A stretch of DNA of 64,000 nt from Posidonia oceanica (lineage: Eukaryota; Streptophyta; Magnoliopsida; Alismatales; Posidoniaceae): the NCBI GenBank assembly GCA_037176725.1, contig JAZBRS010000050.1, forward strand, positions 19,734,001 to 19,798,000. Reading direction: 5' to 3'. The notes beneath the pieces are model-generated. The model was not told where the DNA came from and searched no databases. It saw only the letters and a list, made by a program, of their open reading frames with translations. This document shows positions 6,533 to 30,585 of the stretch, piece by piece; positions within the stretch are counted from its first letter, which is position 1, and each line of letters opens with the position of its first letter. Both the position numbers and the translations under genes were made by a program.

Positions 6533-9186
6533 TGTTGACACCCCATTTTGACAGGCTGGATCGTTTGGAGCCTTCCGGTGGCTGCTGGACCCGAATCTAG
6601 ACCCAAACCTACACCTTCCTCTCCTTCTTTCCCCTCAAAGCAAGCCCAAACTCAACCTAGGATTACCCCCCTTTCCCGAACCTGAAAACCAACCAAAATC
6701 CATAGGAAAACTCACCCCTGATGACTTAGCAAACCCACCAAAAAGCCTGCAAAAATTCAAACCAGACCCCTCCCAAAAATCCTAGGAAACTTAGGCCAAA
6801 ATACCCTTTTTCTACACCTCAAAACCCCTCCAAAACTTCCTCAAAACCAAACCAAAACTCTGGGAGCAAAACTAGAAACCCTAGACCCCACATCCGCCAA
6901 ATTTCACCCCTTTCCGAGACCTCTAAGACCCCCTTTTGCCCAAATTATCGTTTTCTCTCTCTGGGATTATCGTTTTCTCTCTCCTCTCTCTCTCCTGATT
7001 ATCGTCTCTCTTTTCATCCCTTTCTTGTCCTTTTTCTGGCCTGGCTGTGGGCCCCCTTTGTACTCCTTTCCCTTCTCTATCTTATTCCTATTTTTATTTT
7101 ATTTTTAGCATTTTCCCTGAATTTTAAAAAATCTTTTCCCTCAAACCTTTCTCTTCTCCCTCTATTTCCTTCTTTTGCCCATTTCTTTCCTCCTCCTCTT
7201 TCCCTTTTCTCTCTTTTGCAAAAACCCATAAAAATCCCTAAAAATCTGTAAAACCCCAAAACATAAAAGAAACAATTCAGAGTTCCAAGAAAAACAACTA
7301 AAAAACATTAAACAAGTGATTAAAAACTCAAACTTAACTAAATCAAGCTAAAAAGAAAACCAAGCATGCAAACTAAAAAATGCAAAACAAACTAAAAGAA
7401 AATACTGTAAAATCAAGTAAAAACTAAAATAAAGTCAGAACCTACCAAAAATAAAAACCCCACTAAAAGAATTAAAAAAAAAACCCTAAAGAGAAGAATT
7501 AAAAATCAAACACTAAAACAAGTAATTAAAGGAGGCAAAAGACTTAACCTAATAAACATAAGAAAAAACAACATAAAACTTAATTAAAAAGAAAAAGAAA
7601 ATACAGTTGAAAGACTTAAGAACACTTAATCAAACCAGAAAAATCCAACTAAAAAACATCAAGAAAAACTAACAAATAAAAATCAAAAACATAATTCAAA
7701 AGACCTAAGGAAGAAAAACATAAAAGACTAGAACTAAAAAGCCCAAAACCCTTTCTAATTAATATGAAAATAAATCCTAAAAATCCTAATCAACATCCTA
7801 AAATACTTAACAAGGAAACACAATTTTAAAAACAATTTAAAAAGATTTAACCAACACTTAATCAAGTGGAAAATGAATTAACAACAAAAGAAAGCCCTAA
7901 AACCCTAATCAAGCCTAAAACACACTAATTAACCTAAAAACAGTTATTAAAAAATCCAATTAAACACCTAACCTACAACCCAATCCATCTAATATTTTTG
8001 TTTATTTTTATCTTTTTTTTTTCTATTTTATTTCTCCTCTTTTCCCTCTCTTTCTTTCTCTCTTCTCAATTTTCTTTTCTCTCTTCCTTACTGGGCTCAT
8101 CAGCCCGTTTTCCCTTTTTTTCTTTTTTTCAAATTCCAGCCTGGCCCGCAGCTACAGTCCGCCATCTTCCTCCTTCCCTCCTCCCGCGAGCCGCTACAGT
8201 GTTCGCTGGCCTGCTACAGCTCTGCCACAGCAGCTGCAGCACCAGCTCCTGTCACCGCAGACCTGCGCTCGCACGTCTCTGCCGGACCGGACCGGCGTGC
8301 GCCGCACCGCGTCCGTGCTTCCTGCCACCGCCCCTCAGCATTAATTCGTCACAGCTAGACCTGCAAGAGACCAGAATCTTAAGAGCCAAAAAACCAGAAG
8401 AGAGGGGAGGGGAAGAGAAGAGAGTCCATCGGGAGAGAGGAAGAGCATTCGAGCACAATCCCCAGCAAGTGAGAGAGCGGTTCCTCCTCAGAAATCGACC
8501 GAGAGTTCCAGACGGTCCACCTCTCCCTTCCGCAGCAAACCAGAGCCCGAAACACCTCCTGAACCCTTCAGAATTCACCCCCCAACCTCACCCAAGCCTT
8601 TTGCAACTCCTCCCTTCCTTCCCACCGAGAAACGAACCCACATTTCGCCTGAATCCACCTGAAATCCAACCGAAACCCATCTCGAGTCCCTTCTGAAATT
8701 CCCCGCACTCCAGTCTATCACATCCTCTCAGACTCCGCCCTGTTACTCGCCAAGACTCCACCTACCAGAAGCACCCTACCTCCAGCCTTCTCCCCCACCA
8801 TAGGCCGAACCTTCCACCACAAACACCTGCGGCCATCTCTGACCAAACTTCACTCCATCTTCAAACTCACGCCACACGCTTCAGAACCCTCAGCCAACCA
8901 TCCAGTTCCCTTCGCCGGACCTCCAGCAGTCCTCCGGAAGGCTCCATCCAAGCCAGAGAGCGACAGCCAGCTCCCCCGGCCTCCGGCAGCTCACAGTCGA
9001 CCCACAAGCGCCGGATCTCCTGTCAAGCTGCAGAACTTCCACCTGATCGTCTGGGAAGCATCGGAGCATCGTCCTGAAGAAGCTCCAACCGTCGCGAGCC
9101 CCCGGAGTCCACCGCAGCGACCAGACGACGTCCGCCGGCCATCTCCGGCACTGCTGAGGTCGGGAGGACGCACCGGACACGACGAC

Positions 9187-9194
9187 AGGTAATA
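9187..9194 (+). promoter_or_regulatory. Candidate splice donor in the 5' LTR leader
   Basis: AG followed by GTAATA at 9189 ends a GC-rich leader of about 1 kb. The equivalent place in the diverged solo LTR E (44549) reads CCG followed by GTAAGT. An acceptor-like sequence lies just before gag at 13758. This is a motif-based inference only, and the same sequence is present in the 3' LTR near 27319. Confidence 0.35.
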
Positions 9195-10639
9195 ACTGAC
9201 CTCCCCCGCTCTCTCTCCTCCTCCTGCTGCTTCTCCGCCGGTCGGAAGCCGCTTCCGCACATTCCAGACGCTCCTGCAGTTCGTCGACCTTCCTGTCTTC
9301 TCTGGCGCCGGTCGTTTGCCTCCCGGGCGCTCCAGCCGCTGAAACGCCGCTCTGACGCCTCCCGGAGCTCCGCGCGGTCGCCGGCTACGCCCCCCGCCAA
9401 TCTGCGCCTCCTCAGCCTCCCCTGTCGGCGGCCACAAGCGCTGCAAGCTCTGCTGCTACAGTGCTCGTCGCCGTCGACGAAGCACTGTGCATTATTTTTC
9501 TGTTCGTATAGTTTTAGGTGTAAATATTGCATTACTGCCTTAAGTTTTTATATTTTTTGCGTTCTGATCCTCCTGCCATTTATTTTGCTTAGTTTTTAAT
9601 TAAATACCATGCTAAATTGCAACTTATGTTTCTGTTTTTCTATATTTGCCTCTTAGTCCTGTTACTGTGCGTTTCAGTTATAAAATTTTATGCTTTAGTC
9701 CCTCTTCTTTACATTATTGCACTTAGGTCCTGTTTTAAATCAATCTATTTTAATTGCATGTATTTTACTATATCAAATTGCATACTGGGCCCCTCTGCTT
9801 TTTCATATTTACTGTCTGATCCTCTGAACTGTAGTAGCTTAGGTTTATTTCTGATTTTTGCATACTGCATTGCATATTTACTCCCCTGTTTCTTCATTTT
9901 TGCACATAGGTCCACTTTAAATGCACAGTAACCCTTTTGCATGCATTTTAGCTTACTACATTGCATTTTCAACCCTGCATCTTTTAAAAATTGCATATCA
10001 GTCCCCAGACCATGATTCCAGAGCATGTTTTCCATATAAAATTGCATTTTTGGACCCTGCATGGTTTAAAAATCACACACAGACCCTTGCATCTCTTTAA
10101 AACCATATAAAAAGACTGTTTTGCCCCTAAGTTGCATTTCAACTCCTATGCTTGCAAAATTGCATGTAGGCCCTCCACTTGCATTCCCGGACTCCCCAGA
10201 ACCCCCGTTTTCTGGAAAATTTGCATTTTAGCCCCTTTCTTTCTTCAAAAATGCTTTTGAATCCCTGTTCTTTCCAAATTGCTTTTCTTTGTCTTTTCTT
10301 GCTTTGCATGCATTCTGCATTCATCTAGTCTTGCATTTAAGCATCCCCCTTGCATACACTAGGCACTTTTAACTCCCCTTCACTTGGGAGGACCTTCAGC
10401 ACACCCCTAGGGCCTCCTGAACACCTAGATCTGTTCTTCTCCCCTGTTTTGGCCCTTCCACTCCGAAACTGCGATGTCTTCCAATCCGACTGTTGGATCT
10501 CCTCAAGCAAGCTGCCCAAGCGACCGCAGCGAAGTGCTCTTCAGCATGGACCAAGCAGATCTCCGATCAGACTCCCGGATCTCCAAGTATGTCCTCCTGA
10601 ACTCCTGCATTGCATTCATTTGCATGCCATTTGCTCCGT

Positions 10640-11770
10640 TTTTGCGTGCTTTCAAGTTTTCTGCCTCGTTTTGTGTGTAGTCTTGTTTTCTCGCACCGTT
10701 TTGCGTGCCCTTTAGTTTTTCGTCTCGTTTTGCGTGCAGTCTGGTTTCCTCGCTCCGTTTTGCGTGCCGCTTCTTTGTCTTGCACCGTTTTGCGTGCCCT
10801 TTAGTTTTTTCGCCTCGTTTTGCGTGCAGTCTTGTTCTCTCGCACCGTTTTGCGTGCCGCTTCTTTGTCTTGCTCCGTTTTGCGTGCTTTCAAGTTTCCT
10901 CGCTCCGTTTTACGTGCAGTCTTGTTTTCTTGCACCGTTTTGCGTGCCGCTTCTTTGTCTTGCTCCGTTTTGCATGCTTCTAAGTTTTCTCGCTCCGTTT
11001 TGCGTGCCCTTTAGTTTTCTCGCTTCTTTTTGCGTGCAGTCTTGTTTTCTCGCTCCGTTTTGCGTGCCGCTTCTTTGTCTTGCACCGTTTTGCGTGCCCT
11101 TTAGTTTTCTCGCCTCGTTTTGCGTGCAGTCTTGTTTTCTCGCTCCGTTTTGCGTGCCGCTTCTTTGTCTTGCACCGTTTTGTGTGCCCTTTAGTTTTCT
11201 CGCACCGTTTTGCGTGCCATTTAGTTTCCCCGCTCCGTTTTGCGTGTCCTTTAGTTTTCTCGCCTCGTTTTACGTGCAGTCTTGTTTTCTTGCTCCGTTT
11301 TGCGTGCTTCTAAGTTTTCTCGCTCCGTTTTGCGTGCTTTCAAGTTTTCTCGCTCCGTTTTGCATGCCGTTTCTTTGCCTTGCACCGTTTTGCGTGCCCT
11401 TTAGTTTCCTCGCTCCGTTTTACGTGCCCTTTAGTTTTCTCGCCTCGTTTTGCGTGTAGTCTTGTTTTCTTGCACCGTTTTGCGTGCCGCTTCCTTGTCT
11501 TGCACCGTTTTGCGTGCCATTTAGTTTCCTCGCTCCGTTTTACGTGCCCTTTAGTTTTCTCACCTCGTTTTGCGTGTAGTCTTGTTTTCTTGCACCGTTT
11601 TGCGTGCCGCTTCCTTGTCTTGCACCGTTTTGCGTGCCCTTTAGTTTCCTCGCTCCGTTTCGCGTGCTTTCAAGTTTTCTCGCCTCGTTTTGCGTGCAGT
11701 CTTGTTTTCTTGCACCGTTTTGCGTGCCCTTTCGTTTTCTCGCCTCGTCTTGTGTGCCCCTGTTTTTCTT
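10640..11770 (+). repeat. 30-bp tandem array within the 5' LTR
   Basis: About 37 units of 30 bp are built on CGTTTTGCGTGC, followed by one of several variants (CCTTTAGTTTTCTCGC, CGCTTCTTTGTCTTGC, AGTCTTGTTTTCTTGC). Because 30 is divisible by three, all plus-strand frames stay open for long distances and encode 10-residue repeats such as LAPFCVPFSF. The corresponding array in the 3' LTR (28765-29770) has fewer units, which explains most of the LTR length difference. Confidence 0.9.
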
Positions 11771-12428
11771 GCCCGGTTTTGCGCCTTTCTTTCGTTTTCC
11801 GGCACCGTTTTGCGTTCTTGTTCCGCTCCTTGCATCATTTGCATGTCAACCTTGTTTTCGCATCTTTTCGCATTCTTGTTTCGTTCCTCGCACTGTTTTA
11901 CGCTGTTTCCTCTTGCATGTCGCTTGCATTGCCTGTTTTCCCCGCTGTTTTGTTTTATCGCCCGCATTTGCATATAGGGCGATGATGCTTACTGTCCGGA
12001 GTTCTCACGAGCCAGGTTCCGCCCGGTTCGGAACACAGACAACGTTGCTGAGCGCTTAGTTCGCACGTTTACTTTCTTGCATTGTCTTTCATCACTTAGA
12101 GCACACCTTTGAGCATTTAGACAGGCATTCATTGGCACTTAAGCATTCAAAGTCTGCATTTCCCTGCATATGCGAGCGTAAGCCTAGAAAGACCGATTCT
12201 CGGGCGTGTCGGGGGTGCCTAACACCTTCCCCGCGCGTAACAGGAGTCCTTACCCTCTCTTGGCCCGCAATGACCATTGTGCCCTTGTCCTAGGCACGAG
12301 TCACATTATTTGCATTCATTTGCATCTCATTTCTTTTGCATTGCCCGGCATTGCATCTTTTGCTTGGTTTTGCGCGATTATTCACGCATTTCCCCAGTTT
12401 TCCTCGTCTTCCGATTTAATAGACTTGG

Positions 12429-12439
12429 TGGCGACTCCG
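12429..12439 (+). other. PBS-like sequence inside the LTR U5
   Basis: TGGCGACTCCG occurs here, about 176 bases before the true primer binding site, and is identical to its first 11 bases. The copy in the 3' LTR is at 30411-30421. The diverged LTR E has GTAGTGACTCTC at the equivalent place near 45936. Confidence 0.6.
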
Positions 12440-12604
12440 ATTTTGTCTTGTCTTCTTCTTTTCTTTCCTTTTTTCCCTCTTTTAAATGTTTTCGAGTTAG
12501 GTCTTCCTTCTCGGACATAGCCGCTAATAGTGAGCCTGATTCCGATCGGTGCACGCGAGCTTTGGCATCGTGCATGGACGATCCGAACACTGGGATCGCT
12601 ACAG

Positions 12605-16900: not shown

Positions 16901-17229
16901 CTGCCGCCCTGGAAAGCATGGTCGGGATGATCGCGGAGCCCCAGGTCATCACTTTCACGAGTGATGAGCTGCCTCCGGCGGGGATTAATCACAATCAACC
17001 CTTATTCGTCACGGTACAATTCAAGAACTTTCGCATTCCCCTTGCACTGGTCGATAATGGGTCAGGCCTTAACGTCTGTCCCTTGCGAACAGCAACCAAG
17101 CTCGGATTCAAGGCCGAGGACATTACTCCAGCTGTAAAGGGAATGACAGCTTTTGATAACACTCACCATGACGCTCTAGGGATTTTGATTATTCCTCTTA
17201 CCATTGGTCCGGTCACATTCGATGTGTAA
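13939..17229 (+). CDS. Gag and N-terminal protease of element B
   Basis: This 1,096-residue frame opens at ATG 13939 (MAQRTVETP). Residues 1-330 are Pro/Ala/Ser-rich and probably disordered. About 344-520 is a retrotransposon gag domain with motifs FEKYDGRGCP, ALKWFTSLD and GEPFGEYVGRWRAL. Near residue 668 is CDFHRSVGHSTDSC, the CxxH-type zinc-binding motif usual in Tat/Ogre gag. About 1020-1050 is the aspartic protease start with ALVDNGSGLNV. The frame stops at TAA 17227-17229 inside the protease, just after PVTFDV. The same frame continues afterwards with the second protease motif. Gag would form cytoplasmic particles that package element RNA. Either the stop is a recent mutation or some ribosomes read through it. 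No polymerase follows. Confidence 0.85.
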   Translation: MAQRTVETPLTIASEVVPAPAPPAPVSSPSVPSVTPGFSPLPSGAPQFAVGQWQTLAPPNPVAEFILMATSRVLEAPLTPPSQGFVTFDPPSAAATLALGFQSPGQSGSLGSGSSPALQFSVPTDGTPEEQYQQLMDTIQRLQGIALSVRPPSPPVVPEVPVRPALAHLALHSALPPRPSSQLLTVPTMGARIPPLASAPHLTQHAPPPPGGQSFGLVGAQYLVGPSPGTAPVRPLMLHHPAPTTQHTIYPPPLHQAQNSTCIPPCTPPQHGYASHHFASPGDVMVDPEEHLGATQSAYVVPAPAAPSPVAAIPDPINNRMDVLEKALRLVQGTDHQTYQFRDLCCFPEAVLPPKFKIPDFEKYDGRGCPIAHLKAYCGDLAQLQADERLLIRLFQKSLSGPALKWFTSLDMATIKTWNDLSQAFLEQYSFNLDLVPKRADLIATKQNPGEPFGEYVGRWRALASQVRDRPSDEESIEIIIKGAQPSTGALLSIQPVTTFTALIRAGTRVESSLRSGNFPALSVLAKQAPASNDGSSSSAINNNSSLNNNRPKRKDPPKPFVAYVDSPAAPVRLASRPAPPQIYYAPTPRAHPTPQITTTARPVYPAAPVRQGQFQRPRRPPMEKRKFAPLVEPLTAVLPKVALLLRFPEVRPPPNPLPHWFKANLFCDFHRSVGHSTDSCFTLRNAIQDLIESGMIVIDTHEASTSAPSHAPASASTPANVVRRPLPEHSYSGGAGTSGIHSLFPSGSLTSVVDPSELIHDVSTPFPVSLYLAAIAGSESGVHMIRPCARPERSPASAAMLSRAQAPIYLLTRPQPEFPVHLLVRPQSPPSLPSQLPSYPCPPQPVAPLVLAARAPVVINLTRDTHRVPYSYATEMCAEVTRSGRVYRPPAPVTRHSHPEPAIPSPLVQPTVPLPSGQPLESTIAEPVPTTAPPATKKCQPKADITSQLKKVKADISIWDLIHTSAEHREAFLRVFQAARVSQAIEPAALESMVGMIAEPQVITFTSDELPPAGINHNQPLFVTVQFKNFRIPLALVDNGSGLNVCPLRTATKLGFKAEDITPAVKGMTAFDNTHHDALGILIIPLTIGPVTFDV

Positions 17230-17868
17230 TTCTACGTCGTCGACTTGGAACCTAACTTCAACTTTCTGCTTGGGCGCCCTTGGCTCCACAAGCATCAGGT
17301 TATCCCTTCGACCCTCCATCGCATGATCAAGTTCCGCCGAGGCGACGATGTTATCGTTGTCATGGCGGAGAATTTTGAGAAGGAGCGGATCGAAGCGGTT
17401 TCCTCTATCTCTTCGCGGACTGTCCCCTTTGACTCTGATCTCTCGAACGCCTTGTATCGCGTTAATCGGTGTGAGCCGGTTAACTTTTTACCAGATCTTG
17501 AGCGTGTCAACTCCTTGGCCGTTCACAACAACCCCTTTCAGATGGTCGAGAACGTTTGTCACAGGTGGGGCTACGTCAAAGGGACGCCGCTCGGGCGACA
17601 TGGCCAAGGAATCGCCGAACCAATCATGGCGGAAGAACGAAGAGACAACGAGGGTCTAGGTTACGACCCTCACTCCGATAAAGGCAAGCGCCCGCAAGCA
17701 AAGAATCAGAGAATGGTCATACCTCGGAGCCTAGCTAACTTTACAAGTGTAGGTATCCTGGGTTCAAGCGCCGTTCAAGCCATAGTGCCGTCAGAGCCGT
17801 GTCAAAGCCCTCCGCCACCGGAGGAGGACTGGGTCTGCGTTGAGGACTACTACTCGGACGAGGAATAA
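17230..17868 (+). pseudogene. C-terminal protease and G-patch-like segment of element B
   Basis: This is in the same frame as gag and begins directly after the TAA at 17227. It starts with the second conserved protease block FLLGRPWLHKH and then STLHRMIKF, both expected downstream of VDNGS in this lineage. A G-patch-like motif follows (GTPLGRHGQGIAEPI, then GLGY), as in Ogre/Tat polyproteins between protease and reverse transcriptase. The segment ends acidic (EDYYSDEE) at TAA 17866. In autonomous relatives the reverse transcriptase comes next. Here it does not. The segment has no ATG of its own at the start (the first in-frame ATG is 17245), so translation would need readthrough or reinitiation. 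Confidence 0.75.
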
Positions 17869-19152
17869 TCGGGCACGACGGGGGCAGTTCAGACTTGTAA
17901 TGGAAGCCAGCCAAGCCCAGCAGCACCTCGATCAGTTTGTTCAGTCCTTCCGACCGAGGATCATGAAGCAGCAGACTTGACAGAACCCTTGGCAGATTTG
18001 GCAGTCTTTGATTCTCCTGCAGTCATGTCAGCAATACCAGCACCAATTCAAGCACAGTCAGTCAGTTCACATGCAACCATTGTCGCATCAGTGCAACTAC
18101 CACCTTCTCAGAAAGGTCAATCGCTGAGTTCAGTCAGCAGTATAGCTCAGCCCTTTTCAGAGGCCGCGCCACAGGCAATACAGCCAGCTCAATCAGTCAT
18201 GCACCCCCTTGCCGCAGACCGGCAGCTTTCGTGGCCAAATCCTATGATATCAGAGGCCGAGCTCTCGTCGTCATCGCCAGTCGCGGAGAACCAGCTGAGC
18301 ATCGCGGTCTCCCGGCCCTCGGACCTTCAAGAGAACATCTCTGCCCATCCCCTGACAGCAGCAGTCACTCTGGCAGCATATCCATCTGCAATCCCTCTGA
18401 CTAGACCATCTGGGTCTCCCTTGCCGGGACAGTCGCAATCAGGCGCGCCCGTGAGTCAGAGGATACAAGTACCATAAACAGTAATCCATCTCGCAGCTGA
18501 GCCAGTGCCTCAGGCCCTCGGCGCCTACTATGTCGATTCACCTCCAGATGAGGAAGAAGGAGGGGCGGTAGAAGCCCAAGTCGATTCATGGATGTCTGAT
18601 CTAGAGCTGCTTTACCAGGAACAGCTCGAATCCATAGTAGAAGACCTGGCACGACACCAAGCCGCAGAAAGGAAAGGAAAAGCCGTGGTTATGAATCCTC
18701 CTCTGCGAGAGGACTCCACCTCCGTCATGATCCTAGGAGAAAGCTCAGTGATGTCGGATTCTCTCAGACCCGACGAGCTCATTACCCTTCAAACCGAGGG
18801 TGGGTCTAGTTGGCTTATACAGCATATGCCTTCCACAAGTACATCAGCAGATTCAGAAGAAGAGGCACCAGTGGATCACACAACAACGGCAACAGAACAG
18901 AAAGCAGAATCAGTGACAGAGTTGTCAGAAGTTTCAGTGGCAAAGTCATCAACAGTATCAGTCGCAAAACTGGCAAGGCTTTTAGTAGTATCAGTAATAT
19001 GCAGCAGTATCATCAGCAGCAAAGCAGACGGGAGAAGTTGTCAGAACAGAGGCCGCGCGCCGGGGATACAGAAACTCTTGAGGACATGGACCAGGTCGAG
19101 CAGTCCGAGCCGGTCAACGTGTGCTACCTCAAGAAGTACTATCAGTAGCTGA
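17869..19152 (+). pseudogene. Decaying Ser/Gln/Ala-rich continuation of the gag-pro frame
   Basis: The gag frame stays open after 17868 up to TAA 18475-18477, then again from 18478 to about 19150. These pieces are thus separated by single in-frame stops only. Composition is Ser/Ala/Gln/Pro-rich, with an acidic stretch near 18540 (DSPPDEEEG) and a helical-looking stretch near 18600 (ELLYQEQLESIVEDLARHQ). Near the end another frame gives a more natural Gln/Glu-rich tail ending at 19148, so a frameshift around 18900-19000 is likely. I do not recognise a domain. It occupies the place where polymerase genes would lie in an autonomous element. Confidence 0.5.
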
Positions 19153-20481
19153 AAGTAGCCATTGCGGACCCTTCCTCCCACTTGTCATATCTTCACCACT
19201 TGCATGTCTTCATATCTCTTTTCGCTCTATCTCCTCCCCACTTCACTTCATCCCATTTCCTACATTTCCTGCCATTGTAGCACTCCTGTGCATCCCTGCT
19301 CATCCCGTTCACATTCCTCATCAAATCATGCATTGCATAATTGCCCGGTGATGAAAATCGGAGGTGCTTGCCTGCTGCGAAAGGAATCTCCCGACCTCAC
19401 CCGATACTACTTAGATGTCTTGACTAGTGAGGGAGCCACCACTCAACGAGAGCGGGCAAAATGCCCAAACCCCTAAGGACTTACGCCCCTTAGAAGAGTG
19501 CTAGGTGTTAGTCAGAAAGCAGTACATATCCCAGCCTAGATGTGCGGAAAAAGAGAGAGAGAAAGAAAGCCAAAAGTCTGTACCCGAAAGACCCTAACGC
19601 CCATCTCCACTCGGGGAGGGGATAGCGGAAACCTGCAAGCCAAAAAAAAGGGGAAAATGAAAAAGGAAAAAGGAACAAAAAAAGAAAAAAAAAAGGAGAA
19701 TGATAGAAAAGAAAGGGGAGAGGGGGGGAAAGGCCCCACTCCCGCAAAAAAAAAAAGAAAAAAAAAGAAGAAGAGAATAAAGGCAGGCCGCGTAACCCCG
19801 CACCTCTCACCTACCCTAGAAAAGAGTCAAAGCCCGGGTCGAGTCCTCCTTGCTTCCAAAATAGGAATGGGGAGAGCTCTGCACACCGACATTAAAAAAA
19901 AAAGAGAGAGAAGAAAGAGGTAGGAGTGAGTGTAAGTCCTTGAGAGTTTGACATGGAGCCCGTCCTCTCTACACCACTGCCAAACATCACCAACATCCTT
20001 TCCTCGAGCGCCACCAACAAGTTAGGAGTCTGAGTAGAGTCCGGTGAGTTAAGGACCGCTCCCTTTCCATACAGCAGGCACCAAAGCACCCCGATACTGA
20101 GGGCAAACTGCACCAAATCGCACACATCTGCATTTTCCAATCATCTCCGCCCTCTCTGATCATCCCGCTCCGCAAAGGCCTACTCCAGCGCTGAGACAGT
20201 ACCTCTACTTAGCATGCGTTGGCACCGTCAGGCTGCGACAACCCGGGGTTCCCGACAGTCCCCGCCACATCAGCAGAATGCCCTTATGCTTATACATGTT
20301 CAATTGCCATAGTCTGAATTTTTTTACTGTTTAAAAGTGTTGGCCTATCTCTACCAGTTTCAGAATCTGCTTTCCTATGATGGTTTTGTGCCTATATGAA
20401 CTCTGATAATTCGCAGTCTTGGCAAACAGGTATCTGAAGACTCTTGTAATAGCCGTCTGCCCACGTCCTGCAATTTGTGCA
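19153..20481 (+). other. Internal spacer with long purine tract, element B
   Basis: This is a non-coding spacer between the gag-pro remnant and the ORF1-like gene. 19615-19790 is almost pure A/G on the plus strand, with runs of A and GGGGAGAGGGGGGGAAAGG, and a shorter A/G run lies at 19890-19922. Just before the next gene, 20380-20420 has a TTCGCAG acceptor-like sequence, so the downstream gene may be expressed from a spliced RNA. No reading frame with recognisable motifs is present. Confidence 0.5.
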
Positions 20482-21756
20482 ATGGGTTTCCCCACCTTGG
20501 TAACCCCCACACACTGCTCCGAGATCCTGCGAGAATGGATCGGCAAGCTTACAAAAGATGACTGTGAGAAGCTGCGCCTGTGGGGCATTCCGACCAAACT
20601 GCTCAGGGCTGCTGATGTAGAGGTGAGCCGCCATCTTCTGTGTGCCGCTGCACGATTCTGGAAACCAGCACACCATGTCTTCCGTTTCGGCAGAACTGAA
20701 CTGACACCTACACTGGAAGAAGTGCGTCGAATCTGCGGCTTTTCCAAGATCTTGGGGCCGCCCATCTTCATGAGGCGTGACGGATACATGGCAGTCCTGA
20801 AACAGCTGACCGGCCTCTCTACCCAAAGTTGTCAGCAGAAGCTGATTTGTACTAGCGGGCCCACGCCTCTGCTTCGCTTAGCATACTTTGATGATATTGT
20901 GGAAAAGCGCACTGAACTCGGAGACGAGCTGTGGCTCCGAGGGTTTGTCACCCGTTTCCTAGGCGAGCTGGTCTTTACTCATGGCAAGGTAACAATGGCC
21001 ATCGAGATCGCTGAAATAGCACTCGCCGTGGTGACTCGCCAGATAGACCTAGCACCAGTTGTCTTGGCAGAAACCTACCGCGGTCTGGACCGCATCTCGC
21101 ATCGCTGCCGCCACTTTCATGGTTGCGGAGCATTCATTCAGGTCTGGCTAGCGGCGCACACTGAGATAGACCTTCTGCGCCCCCAAGTGCATGCTTTCAA
21201 GGCCTACTGCAGCAGCGGCCATCCCAAGGCAATCAAGAACGTCAAGGAAGAATATGAAAGGCTATCGGGACTGACAGATGACACAGTCACATGGCGCATC
21301 ATTCCTTCTGCAGCCGAAGCATTCACTGTTTTCTTCAATACGCGCGACATGCGGTTAGTTGTGCTACCGGGATTCACTGCGGGTGTAGAATATCACCCTA
21401 TTAGAGTCATGCGCCAGTTCGGCTTCCAGCAAGACGCCTTTGTCGACAGCACAGCGCCCAAGCTCCTTCAAGAATATCCCCTCAGTACAATTGCCCCCAC
21501 GAAGGAGCTGGCCAACCTGATGCAGCATGGGGTGCGATCAACAGACATCGCTGCAATAAGAGGTGTAGGGTATACCCCTGAGTACATCACTGAGTGCAGG
21601 ACCTCTGGTCCATTGATGAAGTCCCGCCAAGCGGTCCCTTGTTCCCTGACTCTGGAAGATCAAAGAAGGCCCGAATCAGCTAGAGCCATCATGCAGCTGT
21701 CATTCGATCTTCCTTTCAAGTTGTGCTGTACTTTTTGGCCTGTCACGGGCATGTAA
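20482..21756 (+). CDS. ORF1-like / plant-mobile-domain-like protein of element B
   Basis: This is an intact frame of 424 residues from ATG 20482 (MGFPTLVTP); the frame is open back to 20419 without an earlier ATG. Recognisable segments are FWKPAHHVFRFGRTELTPTL near residues 60-80, followed by EEVRRICGF, then PTPLLRLAYF near 130 and a helical region with VVLAETYRGLDRI and FIQVWLAAHTEIDLL around 195-235. This pattern matches the ORF1 proteins of Ogre/Tat elements, which resemble the plant mobile domain or aminotransferase-like family of plant proteins. Molecular function is unknown. In Ogre the gene sits upstream of gag. Here it lies downstream of gag-pro, in place of polymerase. Its intact state beside a broken gag-pro is notable. 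Confidence 0.7.
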   Translation: MGFPTLVTPTHCSEILREWIGKLTKDDCEKLRLWGIPTKLLRAADVEVSRHLLCAAARFWKPAHHVFRFGRTELTPTLEEVRRICGFSKILGPPIFMRRDGYMAVLKQLTGLSTQSCQQKLICTSGPTPLLRLAYFDDIVEKRTELGDELWLRGFVTRFLGELVFTHGKVTMAIEIAEIALAVVTRQIDLAPVVLAETYRGLDRISHRCRHFHGCGAFIQVWLAAHTEIDLLRPQVHAFKAYCSSGHPKAIKNVKEEYERLSGLTDDTVTWRIIPSAAEAFTVFFNTRDMRLVVLPGFTAGVEYHPIRVMRQFGFQQDAFVDSTAPKLLQEYPLSTIAPTKELANLMQHGVRSTDIAAIRGVGYTPEYITECRTSGPLMKSRQAVPCSLTLEDQRRPESARAIMQLSFDLPFKLCCTFWPVTGM

Positions 21757-22136
21757 CCAACAACTCTATCAATGCAAAACTGTTTTGGGCTGGCTGTTCA
21801 CATTTCAAAGCTGATCATGCATTCCGTGCTCCTCGTCGCTCACGTCCGGAGGCCCCTTGGCCCGACTGATTGCTCGCATGACGCAGGAAAGTCCTCAGTA
21901 AACGACCCAGGCTCCAGGACCTCTGCGAACCCGCGCCGTCCGACCTGCCACCGGACATCCCCGGCTGAGTCTCCTTTGGGCTGGTACCCCAAACTACTCG
22001 TCTGACAAACACGTCAGTTTTGTCCACCCTTCGCTTTTCTCGATACCAAGGACGTTTTGACCAACCCCTGGTATCATCCTGATACCAGGGGCATCTTTTC
22101 AGACGCCCCGCGGTATCTCACCCTTGTTCTCATCCC
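21757..22136 (+). other. Conserved 3' spacer with GATACC hairpins, element B
   Basis: GATACCA (22042-22048) pairs with TGGTATC (22069-22075). A second hairpin pairs GATACC (22081-22086) with GGTATC (22112-22117) and GGGGC (22088-22092) with GCCCC (22105-22109). The block aligns by eye with the reverse complement of 2780-3330 in element A. Confidence 0.6.
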
Positions 22137-22610
22137 CTCTTTGCCGGCCGATAAGTCCGATATCTTATCACCTTGCCTAATCAATCAATCTCATCATTAT
22201 CTCATCTCCTCTTTGCCGGCCGATAAGTTCGATATCTTATCACCTTGCCCAATCAATCAATCTCATCATTATCTCATCTCCTCTTTGCCGGCCGATAAGT
22301 CCGATATCTTATCACCTTTTCCAACCAAGCTCTCATCATTATCTCACCCCCCTTCTTTAACATTAGCTCTCATCATTACCTCATCCCCCTTCTTTAGCAT
22401 TAGCTCTCATCATTACCTCATCCCCCCTTCTTTAGCATTAGCTCTCAACATTACCTCATCCCCCTTCTTTAGCAATAGCTCTCATCATTACCTCATCCCC
22501 CTTCTTTAGCATTAGTTCTCATCACTACCTCACCCCCCTTCTTTAGCAGTAACTCTCATCATTACCTCATCTCCCTCTTTAGAAGTAGCCCCTCATCATG
22601 ATCTCATCCC
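22137..22610 (+). repeat. 72-bp and about 35-bp tandem repeats, element B
   Basis: Three copies of a 72-bp unit (starts 22137, 22209, 22281) each contain GATAAG, TCCGATAT and CTTATC, a 6-bp hairpin. They run into about eight units of roughly 35 bp built on CTCATCATTACCTCATCCCCC and TTCTTTAGCATTAG. The open frame at 22057-22509 is a repeat artefact. Confidence 0.75.
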
Positions 22611-22724
22611 CTCTTATCAAGCAATCAAGCACCCATCAATCAATCATTCAGCAATCAATCATCCAGCACTCAATCACTCATCAACCAATCACTCATCACT
22701 CGATCATGCATCAAGCACCCTCAG

Positions 22725-24215
22725 GCTGATATCCTAAACTATCAACAATCAAGCACCCTCAGGCTGATACCCTAAACTATCAACAATCAAGCACTCCCAG
22801 GCTGATATTCCTAAACTATCTACTCTCAGGCTGATATTCCTAAACTATCTACTCTCAGGCTGATATTCCTAAACTATCTATTCTCAGGCTGATATCCTAA
22901 ACTATCTATTCTCAGGCTGATATTCCTAAACTATCTATCTTCTGGCCGATCCATGGTTGGCCCGCAGTTGTGTTATACGGCTGACATCCAGTAACTGTCC
23001 CTCGCAATGCCGCTAGGCTGATAACCTAAACTATCGATCTAGGCTGATAACCTAAACTACCGCTAGGCTGATATCCTAAACTATCTATCTAGGCTGATAT
23101 CCTAAACTATCCGGCATTTGCGTTATACGACTGACATCCAGTAACTGTCCCTCGTAATTGCCCTTTCCAGTTGATAGGACTGTAAACTATCGATCTAGGC
23201 TGATAACCTAAACTATCGATCTAGGCTGATATCCTAAACTATCTATGGCAATTACGTTATATGGCTGATATCCAGTAACTATCCCTTGCAATTGCTCTTT
23301 CCAGTTGATAGGACTGTAAACTATCTCTAGGCTGATAACCTAAACTATCTATCTAGGCTGATATCCTAAACTATCGATCTAGGCTGATAACCTAAACTAT
23401 CGCTAGGCTGATATCCTAAACTATCTATCGCAATTGCATTATACGGCTGACATCCAGTAACTGTCCCTCGCAATGCCGCTAGGCTGATAACCTAATCTAT
23501 CGATCTAGGCTGATAACCTAAACTATCGCTAGGCTGATATCCTAAACTATCTATCTAGGCTGATATCCTAAACTATCCGGCATTTGCGTTATACGGCTGA
23601 TATCCAGTAACTATCACTCATGGTTTGCCCTCTCCAGTTGATAGGACTGTAAACTATCGATCTAGGCTGATAACCTAAACTATCGCTAGGCTGATAACCT
23701 AAACTATCGATCTAGGCTGATATCCTAAACTATCTATCGCAATTGCATTATACGGCTGACATCCAGTAACTGTCCCTCGCAATGCCGCTAGGCTGATAAC
23801 CTAATCTATCAATCTAGGCTGATAACCTAAACTATCGCTAGGCTGATATCCTAAACTATCTATCTAGGCTGATATCCTAAACTATCCGGCATTTGCATTA
23901 TACGGCTGATATCCAGTAACTATCACTCATGGTTTGCCCTTTCCAGTTGATAGGACTGTAAACTATTGATCTAGGCTGATAACCTAAACTATCGGTAGGC
24001 TGATAACCTAAACTATCGATCTAGGCTGATATCCTAAACTATCTATGGCAACCATGTTATACGGCTGATATCCAGTAACTATCACTCACAACTGCGCCTT
24101 CCGGTTGATAGGACCGTAAACTATCGTTCCGGTTGATAGGACCGTAAACTATCGCCCTCGGCTGATGATCCGAAACTCATCCGGTCGATAAGTCCGACAA
24201 CTTATCACCTCCCCG
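22725..24215 (+). repeat. Tandem hairpin array of element B (about 25-28 bp units)
   Basis: About 55 short units fall into classes that each form a stem around a loop of 8-9 bases. The arms seen are GATA/TATC (loops ACCTAAAC, TCCTAAAC, TCCAGTAAC), GATAG/CTATC (loops GACTGTAAA, GACCGTAAA), GACA/TGTC (loop TCCAGTAAC), GATGA/TCATC (loop TCCGAAAC, 24164-24181) and GATAAG/CTTATC (loop TCCGACAA, 24187-24206). Arms change together and loops keep an AAC-like 3' edge. Classes are interleaved in higher-order blocks of roughly 130-300 bp that recur between 22960 and 24060. There is no open reading frame. Confidence 0.88.
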
Positions 24216-24399
24216 CGCGGCTTCGTCCCAAAAGACGGAGCCCCGCATCCTTCTGCGTCTGGGAAAAGGTCCACCTCTCCCATCGCGCCTTTGTGGCTTT
24301 GGCTATCCTTCGTCTCGTGGCAGGTCTGGACCTCCCGTCAAGCTCCGCGGTGCACCGCAACGTCCCTCTTCAGCGTCGTCAGCATCGCCAGCGTCACCC

Positions 24400-24661
24400 A
24401 CGTCGCTTCGGTCCCCCCATCGGTACTAACTCCAGCCCTAACTTTTGCATTGCATCCGCATTAGCATGCATCGCATACATTGCATCTCATCCATTTGCAC
24501 CTGCACATTGCACTGCGGCAACGATCCACGATGTTCGGCGCATCCACCGAATAAGTGGCTCACGCCGATAGCAACCCTCTGCTCTCGCCGATCAAATGGG
24601 GTGTCCCGTCAACCCTGAGCAGCGGCCTCGCTTCGCTCGGCCTCGCTCAGGGAGGGGCATC
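24400..24661 (+). other. Conserved pre-LTR segment and polypurine tract of element B
   Basis: TTGCAT/CATCGCAT-rich sequence is followed by a block (24510-24590) that aligns with the reverse complement of 1117-1210 in element A, including CTCACGCC-ATAGCAAC. It ends in the polypurine tract GGGAGGGGCATC at 24650-24661. The arrays upstream differ between A and B, so this segment is more conserved than its neighbours. Confidence 0.65.
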
Positions 24662-24673
24662 TGTTGACACCCC
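24598..24673 (+). other. Hairpin enclosing the polypurine tract and LTR start (element B)
   Basis: GGGGTGTC (24598-24605) pairs with GACACCCC (24666-24673, LTR bases 5-12), and CCCTGAGC (24613-24620) pairs with GCTCAGGG (24645-24652). The polypurine tract starts within the inner 3' arm and continues through the internal loop. The arrangement and stems match those of element A at 1041-1116. Confidence 0.75.
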
Positions 24674-27600
24674 ATTTTGACAGGCTGGATTGTTTGGAGC
24701 CTTCCGGTGGCTGCTGGACCCGAATCTAGACCCAAACCTACACCTTCCTCTCCTTCTTTCCCCTCAAAGCAAGCCCAAACTCAACCTAGGATTACCCCCC
24801 TTTCCCGAACCTGAAAACCAACCAAAATCCATAGGAAAACTCACCCCTGATGACTTAGCAAACCCACCAAAAAGCCTGCAAAAATTCAAACCAGACCCCT
24901 CCCAAAAACCCTAGGAAACTTAGGCCAAAATACCCTTTTTCTACACCTCAAAACCCCTCCAAAACTTCCTCAAAACCAAACCAAAACTCTGGGACCAAAA
25001 CTAGAAACCCTAGACCCCACGTCTGCCAAATTTCACCCCTTTCCGAGACCTCTAAGACCCCCTTTTGCCCAAATTATCGTTTTCTCTCTCTGGGATTATC
25101 GTTTTCTCTCTCCTCTCTCTCTCCTGATTATCGTCTCTCTTTTCATCTGTTTCTTGCCCGTTTTCTGGCCTGGCTGTGGGCCCCCTTTGTACTCCTTTTC
25201 CTTCTCTATCTTATTCCTATTTTTATTTTATTTTTAGCATTTTCCCTGAATTTTAAAAAATCTTTTCCCTCAAACCTTTCTCTTCTCCCTCTATTTCCTT
25301 CTTTTGCCCATTTCTTTCCTCCTCCTCTTTCCCTTTTCTCTCTTTTGCAAAAACCCATAAAAATCCCTAAAAATCTGTAAAACCCCAAAACATAAAAGAA
25401 ACAATTCAGAGTTCCAAGAAAAACAACTAAAAAACATTAAACAAGTGATTAAAAACTCAAACTTAACTAAATCAAGCTAAAAAGAAAACCAAGCATGCAA
25501 ACTAAAAAATGCAAAACAAACTAAAAGAAAATACTGTAAAATCAAGTAAAAACTAAAATAAAGTCAGAACCTACCAAAAATAAAAACCCCACTAAAAGAA
25601 TTAAAAAAAAAACCCTAAAGAGAAGAATTAAAAATCAAACACTAAAACAAGTAATTAAAGGAGGCAAAAGACTTAACCTAATAAACATAAGAAAAAACAA
25701 CATAAAACTTAATTAAAAAGAAAAAGAAAATACAGTTGAAAGACTTAAGAACACTTAATCAAACCAGAAAAATCCAACTAAAAAACATCAAGAAAAACTA
25801 ACAAATAAAAATCAAAAACATAATTCAAAAGACCTAAGGAAGAAAAACATAAAAGACTAGAACTAAAAAGCCCAAAACCCTTTCTAATTAATATGAAAAT
25901 AAATCCTAAAAATCCTAATCAACATCCTAAAATACTTAACAAGGAAACACAATTTTAAAAACAATTTAAAAAGATTTAACCAACACTTAATCAAGTGGAA
26001 AATGAATTAACAACAAAAGAAAGCCCTAAAACCCTAATCAAGCCTAAAACACACTAATTAACCTAAAAACAGTTATTAAAAAATCCAATTAAACACCTAA
26101 CCTACAACCCAATCCATCTAATATTTTTGTTTATTTTTATCTTTTTTTTTTTCTATTTTATTTCTCCTCTTTTCCCTCTCTTTCTTTCTCTCTTCTCAAT
26201 TTTCTTTTCTCTCTTCCTTGCTGGGCTCATCAGCCCGTTTTCCCTTTTTTTCTTTTTTTCAAATTCCAGCCTGGCCCGCAGCTACAGTCCGCCATCTTCC
26301 TCCTTCCCTCCTCCCGCGAGCCGCTACAGTGTTCGCTGGCCTGCTACAGCTCTGCCACAGCAGCTGCAGCACCAGCTCCTGTCACCGCAGACCTGCGCTC
26401 GCACGTCTCTGCCGAACCGGACCGGCGTGCGCCGCACCGCGTCCGTGCTTCCTGCCACCGCCCCTCAGCATTAATTCGTCACAGCTAGACCTGCAAGAGA
26501 CCAGAATCTTAAGAGCCAAAAAACCAGAAGAGAGGGGAGGGGAAGAGAAGAGAGTCCATCGGGAGAGAGGAAGAGCATTCGAGCACAATCCCCAGCAAGT
26601 GAGAGAGCGGTTCCTCCTCAGAAATCGACCGAGAGTTCCAGACGGTCCACCTCTCCCTTCCGCAGCAAACCAGAGCCCGAAACACCTCCTGAACCCTTCA
26701 GAATTCACCCCCCAACCTCACCCAAGCCTTTTGCAACTCCTCCCTTCCTTCCCACCGAGAAACGAACCCACATTTCGCCTGAATCCACTTGAAATCCAAC
26801 CGGAACCCATCTCGAGTCCCTTCTGAAATTCCCCGCACTCCAGTCTATCACATCCTCTCAGACTCCGCCTCGTTACTCGCCAAGACTCCACCTACCAGAA
26901 GCACCCTACCTCCAGCCTTCTCCCCCACCATAGGCCGAACCTTCCACCACAAACACCTGCGGCCATCTCTGACCAAACTTCACTCCATCTTCAAACTCAC
27001 GCCACACGCTCCAGAACCCTCAGCCAACCATCCAGTTCCCTTCGCCGGACCTCCAGCAGTCCTCCGGAAGGCTCCATCCAAGCCAGAGAGCGACAGCCAG
27101 CTCCCCCGGCCTCCGGCAGCTCACAGTCGACCCACAAGCGCCGGATCTCCTGTCAAGCTGCAGAACTTCCACCTGATCGTCTGGGAAGCATCGGAGCATC
27201 GTCCTGAAGAAGCTCCAACCGTCGCGAGCCCCCGGAGTCCACCGCAGCGACCAGACGACGTCCGCCGGCCATCTCCGGCACTGCTGAGGTCGGGAGGACG
27301 CACCGGACACGACGACAGGTAATAACTGACCTCCCCCGCTCTCTCTCCTCCTCCTGCTGCTTCTCCGCCGGTCGGAAGCCGCTTCCGCACATTCCAGACG
27401 CTCCTGCAGTTCGCCGACCTTCCTGTCTTCTCCGGCGCCGGTCGTTTGCCTCCCAGGCGCTCCAGCCTCTGAAACGCCGCTCTGACGCCTCCCGGAGCTC
27501 CGCGCGGTCGCCGGCTACGCCCCCCGCCGATCTGCGCCTCCTCAGCCTCCCCTGTCGGCGGCCACAAGCGCTGCAAGCTCTGCTGCTACAGTGCTCGTCG

Positions 27601-30585
27601 CCGTCGACGAAGCACTGTGCATTTATTTTTCTGTTCGTATAGTTTTAGGTGTAAATATTGCATTACTGCCTTAAGTTTTTATATTTTTTGCGTTCTGATC
27701 CTCCGGCCATTTATTTTGCTTAGTTTTTAACTAAATACCATGCTAAATTGCAACTTATGTTTTTGTTTTTCTATATTTGCCTCTTAGTCCTGTTACTGTG
27801 CGTTTCAGTTATAAAATTTTATGCTTTAGTCCCTCTTCTTTACATTATTGCACTTAGGTCCTGTTTTAAATCAGTCTATTTTAATTACATGTATTTTACT
27901 ATATCAAATTGCATACTGGGCCCCTCTGCTTTTTCATATTTACTGTCTGATCCTCTGAACTGTAGTAGCTTAGGTTTATTTCTGATTTTTGCATACTGCA
28001 TTGCATATTTACTCCCCTGTTTCTTCATTTTTGCACATAGGTCCACTTTAAATGCACAGTAACCCTTTTGCATGCATTTTAGCTTACTACATTGCATTTT
28101 CAACCCTGCATCTTTTAAAAATTGCATATCAGTCCCCAGACCATGATTCCAGAGCATGTTTTCCATATAAAATTGCATTTTTGGACCCTACATGGTTTAA
28201 AAATCACACACAGACCCTTGCATCTCTTTAAAACCATATAAAAAGACTGTTTTGCCCCTAAGTTGCATTTCAACTCCTATGCTTGCAAAATTGCATGTAG
28301 GCCCTCCACTTGCATTCCCGGACTCCCCAGAACCCCCGTTTTCTGGAAAATTTGCATTTTAGCCCCTTTCTTTCTTCAAAAATGCTTTTGAATCCCTGTT
28401 CTTTCCAAATTGCTTTTCTTTGTCTTTTCTTGCTTTGCATGCATTCTGCATTCATCTAGTCTTGCATTTAAGCATCCCCCTTGCATACACTAGGCACTTT
28501 TAACTCCCCTTCACTTGGGAGGACCTTCAGCACACCCCTAGGGCCTCCTGAACACCTAGATCTGTTCTTCTCCCCTGTTTTGGCCCTTCCACTCCGAAAC
28601 TGCGATGTCTTCCAATCCGACCGTTGGATCTCCTCAAGCAAGCTGCCCAGGCAACCGCAGCGAAGTGCTCTTCAGCATGGACCAAGCAGATCTCCGATCA
28701 GACTCCCGGATCTCCAGGTATGTCCTCCTGAACTCCTGCACTGCATTCATTTGCATGCCATTTACTCCGTTTTTGCGTGCTTTCAAGTTTTCTGCCTCGT
28801 TTTGCGTGCCGCTTCTTTGTCTTGCACCGTTTTGCGTGCCCTTTAGTTTTTTCGCCTCGTTTTGCGTGCAGTCTTGTTCTCTCGCACCGTTTTGCGTGCC
28901 GCTTCTTTGTCTTGCTCCGTTTTGCGTGCTTTCAAGTTTCCTCGCTCCGTTTTACGTGCAGTCTTGTTTTCTTGCACCGTTTTGCGTGCCGCTTCTTTGT
29001 CTTGCTCCGTTTTGCATGCTTCTAAGTTTTCTCGCTCCGTTTTGCGTGCCCTTTAGTTTTCTCGCTTCGTTTTGCGTGCAGTCTTGTTTTCTCGCTCCGT
29101 TTTGCGTGCCGCTTCTTTGTCTTGCACCGTTTTGCGTGCCCTTTAGTTTTCTCGCCTCGTTTTGCGTGCAGTCTTGTTTTCTCGCTCCGTTTTGCGTGCC
29201 GCTTCTTTGTCTTGCACCGTTTTGCGTGCCCTTTAGTTTTCTCGCACCGTTTTGCGTGCCCTTTAGTTTCCCCGCTCCGTTTTGCGTGTCCTTTAGTTTT
29301 CTCGCCTCGTTTTGCGTGCAGTCTTGTTTTCTTGCACCGTTTTGCGTGCCGCTTCTTTGTCTTGCTCCGTTTTGCGTGCTTCTAAGTTTTCTCGCTTCGT
29401 TTTGCGTGCTTTCAAGTTTTCTCGCTCCGTTTTGCGTGCCGTTTCTTTGCCTTGCACCGTTTTGCGTGCCCTTTAGTTTCCTCGCTCCGTTTTGCGTGCC
29501 CTTTAGTTTCCTCGCTCCGTTTTGCGTGCCCTTTAGTTTTCTCGCCTCGTTTTGCGTGTAGTCTTGTTTTCTTGCACCGTTTTGCGTGCCGCTTCCTTGT
29601 CTTGCACCGTTTTGCGTGCCCTTTAGTTTCCTCGCTCCGTTTCCCGTGCTTTCAAGTTTTCTCGCCTCGTTTTGCGTGCAGTCTTGTTTTCTTGCACCGT
29701 TTTGCGTGCCCTTTCGTTTTCTCGCCTCGTCTTGCGTGCCCCTGTTTTTCTTGCCCGGTTTTGCGCCCTTCTTTCGTTTTCCGGCACCGTTTTGCGTTCT
29801 TGTTCCGCTCCTTGCATCATTTGCATGTCAACCTTGTTTTCGCATCTTTTCGCATTCTTGTTTCGTTCCTCGCACTGTTTTACGCTGTTTCCTCTTGCAT
29901 GTCGCTTGCATTGCCTGTTTTCCCCGCTGTTTTGTTTTATCGCCCGCATTTGCATATAAGGCGATGATGCTTACTGTCCGGAGTTCTCACGAGCCAGGTT
30001 CCGCCCGGTTCGGAACACAGACAGCGTTGCTGAGCGCTTAGTTCGCACGTTTACTTTCTTGCATTGTCTTTCATCACTTAGAGCACACCTTTGAGCATTT
30101 AGACAGGCATTCATTGGCACTTAGGCATTCAAAGTCTGCATTTCCCTGCATATGCGAGCGTAAGCCTAGAAAGACCGATTCTCGGGCGTGTCGGGGGTGC
30201 CTAACACCTTCCCCGCGCGTAACAGGAGTCCTTACCCTCTCTTGGCCCGCAATGACCATATTGCCCTTGTCCTAGGCACGAGTCACATTATTTGCATTCA
30301 TTTGCATCTCATTTCTTTTGCATTGCCATGCATTGCATCTTTTGCTTGGTTTTGCGCGATTATTCACGCATTTCCCCGGTTTTCCTCGTCTTCCGATTTA
30401 ATAGACTTGGTGGCGACTCCGATTTTGTCTTGTCTTCTTCTTTTCTTTCCTTTTTTCCCTCTTTTAAATGTTTTCGAGTTAGGTCTTCCTTCTCGGACAT
30501 AGCCGCTAATAGTGAGCCTAATTCCGATCGGTGCACGCGAGCTTTGGCAACGTACATGGACGATCCGAACACTGGGATCGCTACA
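24662..30585 (+). repeat. 3' LTR of element B (5,924 bp)
   Basis: It is collinear with the 5' LTR from TGTTGACACC to GGGATCGCTACA. It carries the 30-bp array at 28765-29770, with fewer units than the 5' copy. It lacks the stop-bearing unit near 10678, so the frame from ATG 28605 runs to 29561 (318 residues of mostly 10-residue Cys/Phe/Pro repeats). It is followed directly by the CAATG duplication. Confidence 0.92.

Follow-up and report, generated by a model that had tools for sequence, protein, structure and literature searches.

The 64,000-nucleotide stretch of Posidonia oceanica DNA analysed here (the window) contains, in the 3′ non-coding region of an LTR retrotransposon that we call element B, many short tandem units with complementary arms. 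An earlier note had taken them for an array of hairpins in which the two arms change together, so that structure, not sequence, would be what is kept. The question raised by this locus is which fold the units have and what an array of them could do for the element that carries it.

The element that carries the array

Element B is an LTR retrotransposon of ~24 kb with 6 kb LTRs. Its 5′ LTR (6533..12603, + strand) and 3′ LTR (24662..30585, + strand), which were located by self-BLAST with their ends placed by eye, are 95.6% identical over their best 5.15 kb, and the target-site duplicate CAATG was read by eye at 6528–6532 and 30586–30590. Directly 3′ of the 5′ LTR, at the position of the primer binding site, is TGGCGACTCCGCTGGGGA, which may point to tRNA-Arg as the primer. 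Three of the five internal ORFs had Pfam domains in hmmscan, all on the + strand: a gag ORF (PF03732; 13918..17229; E 1.6e-11), a G-patch ORF (PF01585; 17245..17868; E 1.9e-9) and a plant mobile domain (PMD) ORF (PF10536; 20419..21756; E 7.5e-21). Pfam searches of 13918–22509, which covered the five ORFs and ten + strand stop-to-stop frames drawn from those of at least 60 aa in 17327–22509, gave no match to reverse transcriptase (RT), RNase H, aRH or integrase. Given that a PMD ORF and 3′ tandem repeats are present and that only gag, G-patch and PMD were matched, element B is apparently a Tat/Ogre-like LTR retrotransposon without a polymerase. According to one survey, 57% of Ogre elements have the PMD, and non-chromovirus elements have tandem repeats in their large non-coding regions (PMC6317226); the occurrence of PMDs within Gypsy elements is already known (PMC5418596; PMC7156037).

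The array spans 22128–24215, between the PMD ORF and the start of the 3′ LTR at 24662. Between the array and the LTR, two inverted-repeat pairs are nested around the polypurine tract, namely GGGGTGTC (24598–24605) with GACACCCC (24666–24673, at the LTR start) and CCCTGAGC (24613–24620) with GCTCAGGG (24645–24652); the arms, polypurine tract and LTR start were read from the sequence at 24598..24673 on the + strand. A 30-bp tandem array of CGTTTTGCGTGC units is also found inside both LTRs (10633–11815 and 28765–29797), and hairpins of at least 5 bp are absent from its 5′ copy, compared to a mean of 1.9 in shuffles. Beyond element B, 31641–34934 on the minus strand belongs to another, Ty3-type retrotransposon with matches to protease, reverse transcriptase, RNase H and a Tf2-1-like SH3 domain over three ORFs.

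Units of the array and their layout

Each unit is 21–26 nt long, and in most units two short helices can be read that are interleaved: S1 opens, S2 opens inside the S1 loop, S1 closes and S2 closes, which makes each unit a potential H-type pseudoknot. S1 has the forms CGG/CCG, TAGG/CCTA, CAGT/ACTG and TCGG/CCGA, and S2 is GATA/TATC or one of its kin. Examples are C-AGG-CT-GATA-T-CCT-AAAC-TATC, TAGG-CT-GATA-A-CCTA-AAC-TATC, CAGT-T-GATAG-G-ACTG-TAAA-CTATC, CGGT-T-GATAG-G-ACCG-TAAA-CTATC, TCGG-CT-GATGA-T-CCGA-AAC-TCATC and CGG-CC-GATAAG-T-CCG-ATAT-CTTATC, while in GGCTGAYATCCAGTAAC units S1 is reduced to GG/CC. The earlier note, in treating the unit as a hairpin, had overlooked this second, interleaved helix, with which the unit reads better as a pseudoknot. 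The kept loop of 8–9 bases that it described is present, but it is not idle, in that three to four of its bases can pair with nucleotides just 5′ of the stem. Perfect interleaved double helices were found at 41 places in 22101–24230, versus 2–7 in ten dinucleotide shuffles, the 41 places including copies that are not independent of each other. Among the 51 template-matched units of the window slice, S2 was fully paired in 50, and 43 had at least three S1 pairs as well, with G·U counted as paired.

On the + strand, two isolated units at 21977..22024 lie upstream of the array: GGG-CT-GGTA-C-CCC-AAAC-TACT, which is a template match with five mismatches, and CGT-CT-GACAAA-C-ACG-TCAGT-TTTGTC, which recurs in 13 loci in one scan and in 4 loci in another. 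The array itself begins with three units of the form CGG-CC-GATAAG-T-(C/T)CG-ATAT-CTTATC with a period of 72 (22145..22313, + strand; repeat, helix and template scans). They are followed by a spacer, a 37-bp tandem array at 22328..22611 on the + strand (repeat scan), in which neither the double-helix scan nor the template scan found a pseudoknot unit, and by seven units AGG-CT-GATA-(t, tt or c)-CCT-AAAC-TATC (22722..22935, + strand; helix and template scans). The main array (22978..24206, + strand; repeat, helix and template scans) holds 40 template-matched units and a 309-bp higher-order repeat. Its S1 helices are TAGG/CCTA, CAGT/ACTG, CGGT/ACCG, TCGG/CCGA and CGG/CCG, with only GG/CC in CGGCTGAYATCCAGTAACTRTC units, and its S2 helices open with GATA, GATAG, GACA, GATGA or GATAAG.

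All five stem classes previously listed were recovered in place: GATAAG/CTTATC at 22145–22313 (the three units above) and 24182–24206, GATA/TATC at 22722–24083, GATAG/CTATC at 23168, 23302, 23635, 24102 and 24130 (the unit at 23944 ends in CTATT), GACA/TGTC at 22978, 23128, 23444 and 23753, and GATGA/TCATC at 24158. The stems of the hairpin array that had been drawn at 22137..24215 are present, but 22328–22611 is free of units and related units start earlier, at 21977–22024.

Other pairings were noticed in and around the array. A 12-bp perfect hairpin, CCCCTGGTATCA-tcc-TGATACCAGGGG, was read from the + strand sequence at 22065..22091; it varies among the related loci L043, L054 and L033, and by eye L043 has a matched GGTGTC/GACACC variant. 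The S2 arms of neighbouring units are mutually complementary, and cross-unit pairing of the form CTATCGCTTC-CGGTT-GATAG is found in 16 loci (tandem arrays among L031–L069). Through such pairing, the arrays may have alternative folds.

Distribution of the units in the genome

The 2.96 Gb genome was searched for exact copies of units and for the junction between polypurine tract and LTR start. The junction probe matched 66,114 sites at no more than two mismatches, counted whatever the element type, and its control matched none; the junction pattern marks a very large retrotransposon group. The related 3′ ends sampled were those of the 40 sites that came first in the list, with ~4.8 kb upstream of each; they share a single contig and are hence a local rather than a random sample of the genome. 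The upstream arms of the two inverted repeats, neither of which was part of the probe, are exact in 35/40 (GGGTGTC) and 30/40 (CCCTGAG) of these ends. The last 4 kb were scanned with 20 unit templates, which were chosen by eye from the sampled and earlier loci, at a limit of five mismatches; a unit was called full when S2 was entirely paired and S1 had at least three pairs, with G·U counted. Dinucleotide shuffles and the antisense strand served as controls, as complementarity survives reversal and the reversed uncomplemented sequence was unsuitable.

The 40 related 3′ ends contained 1,280 units, 902 of them with both helices, compared to 0.67 units and 0 full units in the shuffles (mean of three) and 0 and 0 on the antisense strand. 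At least three full units were found in 36/40 ends and at least one in 39/40; L057, L060 and L065 had two each, and the template scan found no unit at all in the last 4 kb of L038. What had been presented as a feature of one array in element B is in fact common to a large group of elements. Repeat periods and unit sequences differ among the 40 ends, which carry a median of four S2 sequences, compared to five in the window array.

The coding sequences upstream also vary. A PMD was found in 21 of the 40 loci and a gag without a PMD match in eight, while 11 had neither within reach; the gag of the eight is 34–54% identical to that of element B over 44–464 aligned residues. At least three full units were present in 20/21 of the PMD loci, 7/8 of the loci with gag but no PMD match and 9/11 of the loci with neither. 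Given that 7/8 of these gag loci still carry units, the PMD does not seem to be required for the module, and its candidacy as a required partner is disfavoured by the same loci.

Structured repeats were also seen elsewhere. Element A, on the left side of the window, has units on its own sense strand (2961–3295, minus strand), with six template matches of which five are full. On the minus strand at 1360–2666 and 4740–5646, it also has nested hairpins arranged in tandem (TCGCC-ta-GAGC-taccg-GCTC-GGCGA; 12 and 7 hairpins, respectively), in which a matched change from CGCC/GGCG to CGCT/AGCG occurs. Plain hairpins are found in other 3′ arrays (L057, L065 and L043), i.e., GACTTTGTC..GACAAAGTC, TCCTC..GAGGA, and CTCGGCTGG..CCAGCCGAG beside CTCAGCTG..CAGCTGAG. 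Structured units were considered as a universal rule and rejected: hairpins of at least 5 bp exceeded every shuffle in only 3/8 other arrays. Cross-species searching of viral contigs gave 10 stretches and 1 stretch that each had one exact match, which we took as chance, and no PMD relative was found there.

Paired changes in the two helices

The change from GATA to GACA that had been reported to be matched by a change from TATC to TGTC beside TCCAGTAAC is exact. Genome-wide, exact copies beside TCCAGTAAC comprise 77,734 of the T-A form (GATA/TATC), 46,900 of the C-G form (GACA/TGTC), 983 of the C·A form and 266 of the T·G form, i.e., 124,634/125,883 are matched. In S1, CAGT/ACTG (105 copies) and CGGT/ACCG (147) were found in 67 loci versus 4 and 7 copies of the mixed forms (252/263 matched); genome-wide, the G·T mixed form of this pair has 5,037 copies. 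As the copies are related by descent, such counts measure association and not numbers of events. Both of two adjacent S2 pairs are matched in 71/87 distinct units of the group-2 layout (AT/AT 37, GC/GC 22, GT/AC 8, AC/GT 3 and TC/GA 1) and in 88/96 alpha units. The outer S1 pair of the alpha units is matched in 75/96 (A-T 36, G-C 25, T-A 11 and C-G 3), the rest being G·U (3) or other combinations (18). It should be noted that the templates are themselves matched units and that mixed forms fit the five-mismatch limit, with some lean toward matched forms possible. By our reading, no fewer than five S2 and four S1 unit backgrounds show matched changes, dispersed group-2 units included, which bears out the earlier observation that the arms change together.

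Three tests put these associations against null expectations. When the 3′ letters were re-dealt among units in the seven layouts with at least 25 distinct units, pairing was above all 200 shuffles in 4/7 layouts for S2 and in 2/7 for S1, and within the shuffle range in 3/7 and 5/7, respectively. Among the 119 units found in at least two of the 67 loci, there are 311 neighbours at a distance of two letters, and in 18 of these the difference is exactly one matched pair (11 in S1 and 7 in S2), compared to 0–3 when the partner was slid by 1–3 bases; for all 573 units, the numbers are 57/2,433 versus 3–19. A permutation that preserves position usage was not exceeded, however: the 18 matched neighbours compare with 13.0 (sd 3.2) expected, and 159/2000 permutations were as high, which is not significant. 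The covariation, which the earlier note had proposed to score against a phylogenetic null, exceeded column shuffles in part of the layouts but did not exceed this stricter permutation.

Nor did both-arm changes outnumber one-arm changes. On a minimum spanning tree of the 62 units that occur in at least three loci, S1 has 4 both-arm and 28 one-arm changes, and S2 has 5 and 6. The S1 one-arm changes comprise 11 to G·U, 16 to a mismatch and 1 from mismatch to mismatch; four of those in S2 are to G·U. We read many of the S1 one-arm changes as C>T or G>A within the CpG dinucleotide of CGG/CCG, or as changes in a fourth pair that is probably unreal, its position being open to any letter. If the RNA fold filtered decay, G·U would be expected to be preferred to A·C among single changes on the sense strand. 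There was no such excess at inner S1 pairs (76 versus 77 single changes). At inner S2 pairs G·U exceeded A·C (67 versus 26), with 39 of the 67 being A-T>G·T in two GATAAG unit classes, whereas at the GATA/GACA pair the C·A form outnumbers the T·G form, opposite to a wobble preference. This last excess possibly results from CHG methylation, with the arms differing in CHG context. Most single changes are probably the decay of dead copies and carry little weight either way. Structure rather than sequence is still the better account of what is kept, given paired changes in several backgrounds, but it is weakened by S1 changes that are mostly one-armed and by the non-significant permutation.

Loop lengths and stability

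In 6/7 of the commonest recurrent units, a scan with wide loop limits gave a loop 1 of 1–2 nt and a loop 3 of 4 nt, the latter within the length of at least 3 nt looked for in an H-type fold. Loop 3 of the templates is rich in A and often ends in AAC. Among 40 units recurring in at least three loci, loop 1 is shorter than loop 3 in 24, equal in 1 and longer in 15, and several of those with the longer loop 1 join arms of neighbouring units. By the usual pseudoknot rule, a loop of 1–2 nt cannot span the longer helix. The loop lengths therefore fit a pseudoknot only when the unit is read in sense; read in antisense, the loop across the longer helix would be just 1–2 bases long.

Taken one at a time, the hairpins of a unit are weak, with energies of −0.9 to −6.5 kcal/mol for S1 and +1.3 to −6.1 kcal/mol for S2, and the best nested fold per unit reaches −0.7 to −7.5 kcal/mol. 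For the 16 of the 20 templates that were computable, S1 and S2 together have stacking sums between −11 and −19 kcal/mol, before pseudoknot loop costs. A comparison of RNAfold with shuffles, which the earlier note had suggested, gave a nested z of −2.77 for 23000–23900 with 20 shuffles; the signal is weak, and the method is blind to pseudoknots. The interleaving of two helices that both show compensatory changes by column shuffle (S2 in 4/7 and S1 in 2/7 layouts, the stricter permutation not being exceeded), together with the loop lengths, makes it quite likely that the units have a conserved RNA fold, and that this fold is a pseudoknot is probable, if somewhat less so.

Possible function of the array

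We propose, with a probability of about 0.4, that the genomic RNA carries, in its 3′ non-coding part, an array of ~50 pseudoknots whose fold is kept and on which a protein, most likely Gag, docks at many sites for packaging. The 21–26 nt module would fold as an H-type pseudoknot with an S1 of 3–4 bp, a loop of 1–3 nt, an S2 of 4–6 bp and an A-rich loop of 3–6 nt. Its sequence would drift and be swapped in matched pairs, by which the fold would be preserved. The tandem copies would let a protein specific for the fold bind additively and multivalently, likeliest the element's own Gag; docking of Gag would single out the genomic RNA for packaging, and copies without a polymerase would be carried in the particles of other copies. 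We infer that the units fold in RNA, that they are retained for this fold and that they are repeated for multivalent binding. Gag is favoured as the partner because the PMD is seemingly unneeded, the polymerase is missing here and Gag of Ty1 binds pseudoknot stems. In Ty1 genomic RNA, Gag binds the stems of a pseudoknot and its preferential binding is lost when the pseudoknot is destabilised, while point mutations in the stems are reported to be without effect on packaging (available part of PMC8396678). Docking of Gag on the array itself is possible rather than probable.

The main rival to Gag docking is the use of the array by host factors as an element for RNA transport, stability or translation, comparable to the musD MTE or the TMV domain. 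Its position in the 3′ non-coding region and the tandem pseudoknots would suit such a role likewise, and models exist in the musD MTE (excerpts of PMC12786077) and in the TMV domain that binds eEF1A (excerpts of PMC4683447). Ogre elements of Medicago have been reported to have functional introns, and unspliced RNA would then need a route of export. However, Rfam gave no match to any other TMV-like part in the stretch, including a tRNA-like structure of the TMV type at 21700–24800, and the number of units differs between copies. We regard this explanation as unlikely, and as less probable than the proposed array for docking of Gag.

Mutation without selection on RNA is less likely again. By this account, the matched changes would come from templated repair at near-palindromes, or from a few lucky founders that were amplified in a homogenising tandem array. 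Tandem arrays do homogenise, and the permutation null that was not exceeded, the common one-arm changes in S1 and the wobble counts without clear support are all as this account would have them. Against it are the recurrence of matched changes in different S2 and S1 backgrounds, also in dispersed group-2 units, and the interleaving of two helices with loops that fit a pseudoknot, which repair of a single palindrome does not give.

That the arms act in DNA, as dyads bound by a dimeric protein of the GATA or I-box type or by the PMD protein, e.g., in transcription or anti-silencing, is improbable. The near-constant spacing of the GATA/TATC dyads, the PMD ORF just upstream in the window and in 21/40 loci, and a wobble test with no clear strand preference would agree with it; nevertheless, one protein would hardly accept the several S2 sequences found within an array, 7/8 of the gag loci without a PMD match have at least three units, and the second, interleaved dyad is left unaccounted for.

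The unit TCGGCTGATGATCCGAAACTCATC at 24158–24181 resembles the hammerhead core without stem II, the core being CUGAUGA..GAAA. A catalytic RNA of this kind, or another known RNA family, is very improbable: the likeness is that of the TCGGCTGATGATCCGAAAC unit to the core, but stem II is absent, the templates of the other unit classes lack the core bases, and neither a hammerhead nor another relevant Rfam family was found at E up to 1 in 21700–24800 and seven loci, with one unrelated sub-threshold match in the window stretch.

Relation to known systems and implications

A hypervariable region of 3′ tandem repeats in Tat/Ogre LTR retrotransposons was reportedly described by Macas in 2009. The array of element B resembles that region in its position between the coding region and the 3′ LTR, its varied repeats and its association with a PMD ORF, in a region known as a source of satellites; tandem repeats were found here between the coding region and the 3′ LTR, and they differ between related copies. 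Element B differs from autonomous Tat/Ogre elements in having no RT, RNase H, aRH or integrase matches. That Tat/Ogre elements have 3′ non-coding tandem repeats of varied sequence, which grow into satellites, is established in the accessible parts of two studies (PMC7004042; PMC6317226). Neither study mentions, in those parts, that the unit has a conserved fold (Vondrak 2019, PMC7004042; Neumann 2019, PMC6317226), and the text of PMC7004042, which discusses the origin of these repeats, does not contain "hairpin", "secondary structure" or "palindrom".

Structured RNA is known in other systems, as far as the available excerpts of the respective papers go. Ty1 likewise has a pseudoknot in the genomic RNA of an LTR retrotransposon, but it is a single long-range pseudoknot on the 5′ side for which Gag binding was shown, whereas element B has dozens that are short, local and on the 3′ side (PMC8396678). 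The upstream pseudoknot domain of TMV also consists of consecutive pseudoknots in 3′ non-coding RNA in plants, but with three units followed by a tRNA-like structure, and in a virus rather than a retrotransposon (PMC4683447). The MTE of musD is likewise a structured RNA that belongs to an LTR retrotransposon and includes pseudoknots; unlike the array, it is a single complex element with kissing loops, in mouse, for which export is reported (PMC12786077). We found no pseudoknots or secondary structure described for the Tat/Ogre repeats in the literature searched, to which subscription papers were mostly external, and the pseudoknot nature of these repeats provisionally appears to be new.

The 3′ tandem repeats of Ogre/Tat elements are widespread in plants and seed satellites, and in our view it is because of their variety that no function has been accepted for them. 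Should the unit be a conserved RNA fold, this variety would be superficial only, plant LTR retrotransposons would have a cis-acting signal open to direct testing and a route for the spread of polymerase-less copies would be possible. We suggest, tentatively and as a doubtful extension, that the 3′ repeats may here be an RNA organ, i.e., fast-drifting arrays of one old pseudoknot module, its fold common to families whose gag is only ~34–54% identical, that would dock Gag and by which polymerase-less copies would be packaged too. If this reading is true, repeats that have long passed for junk and for a source of satellites would gain a role.
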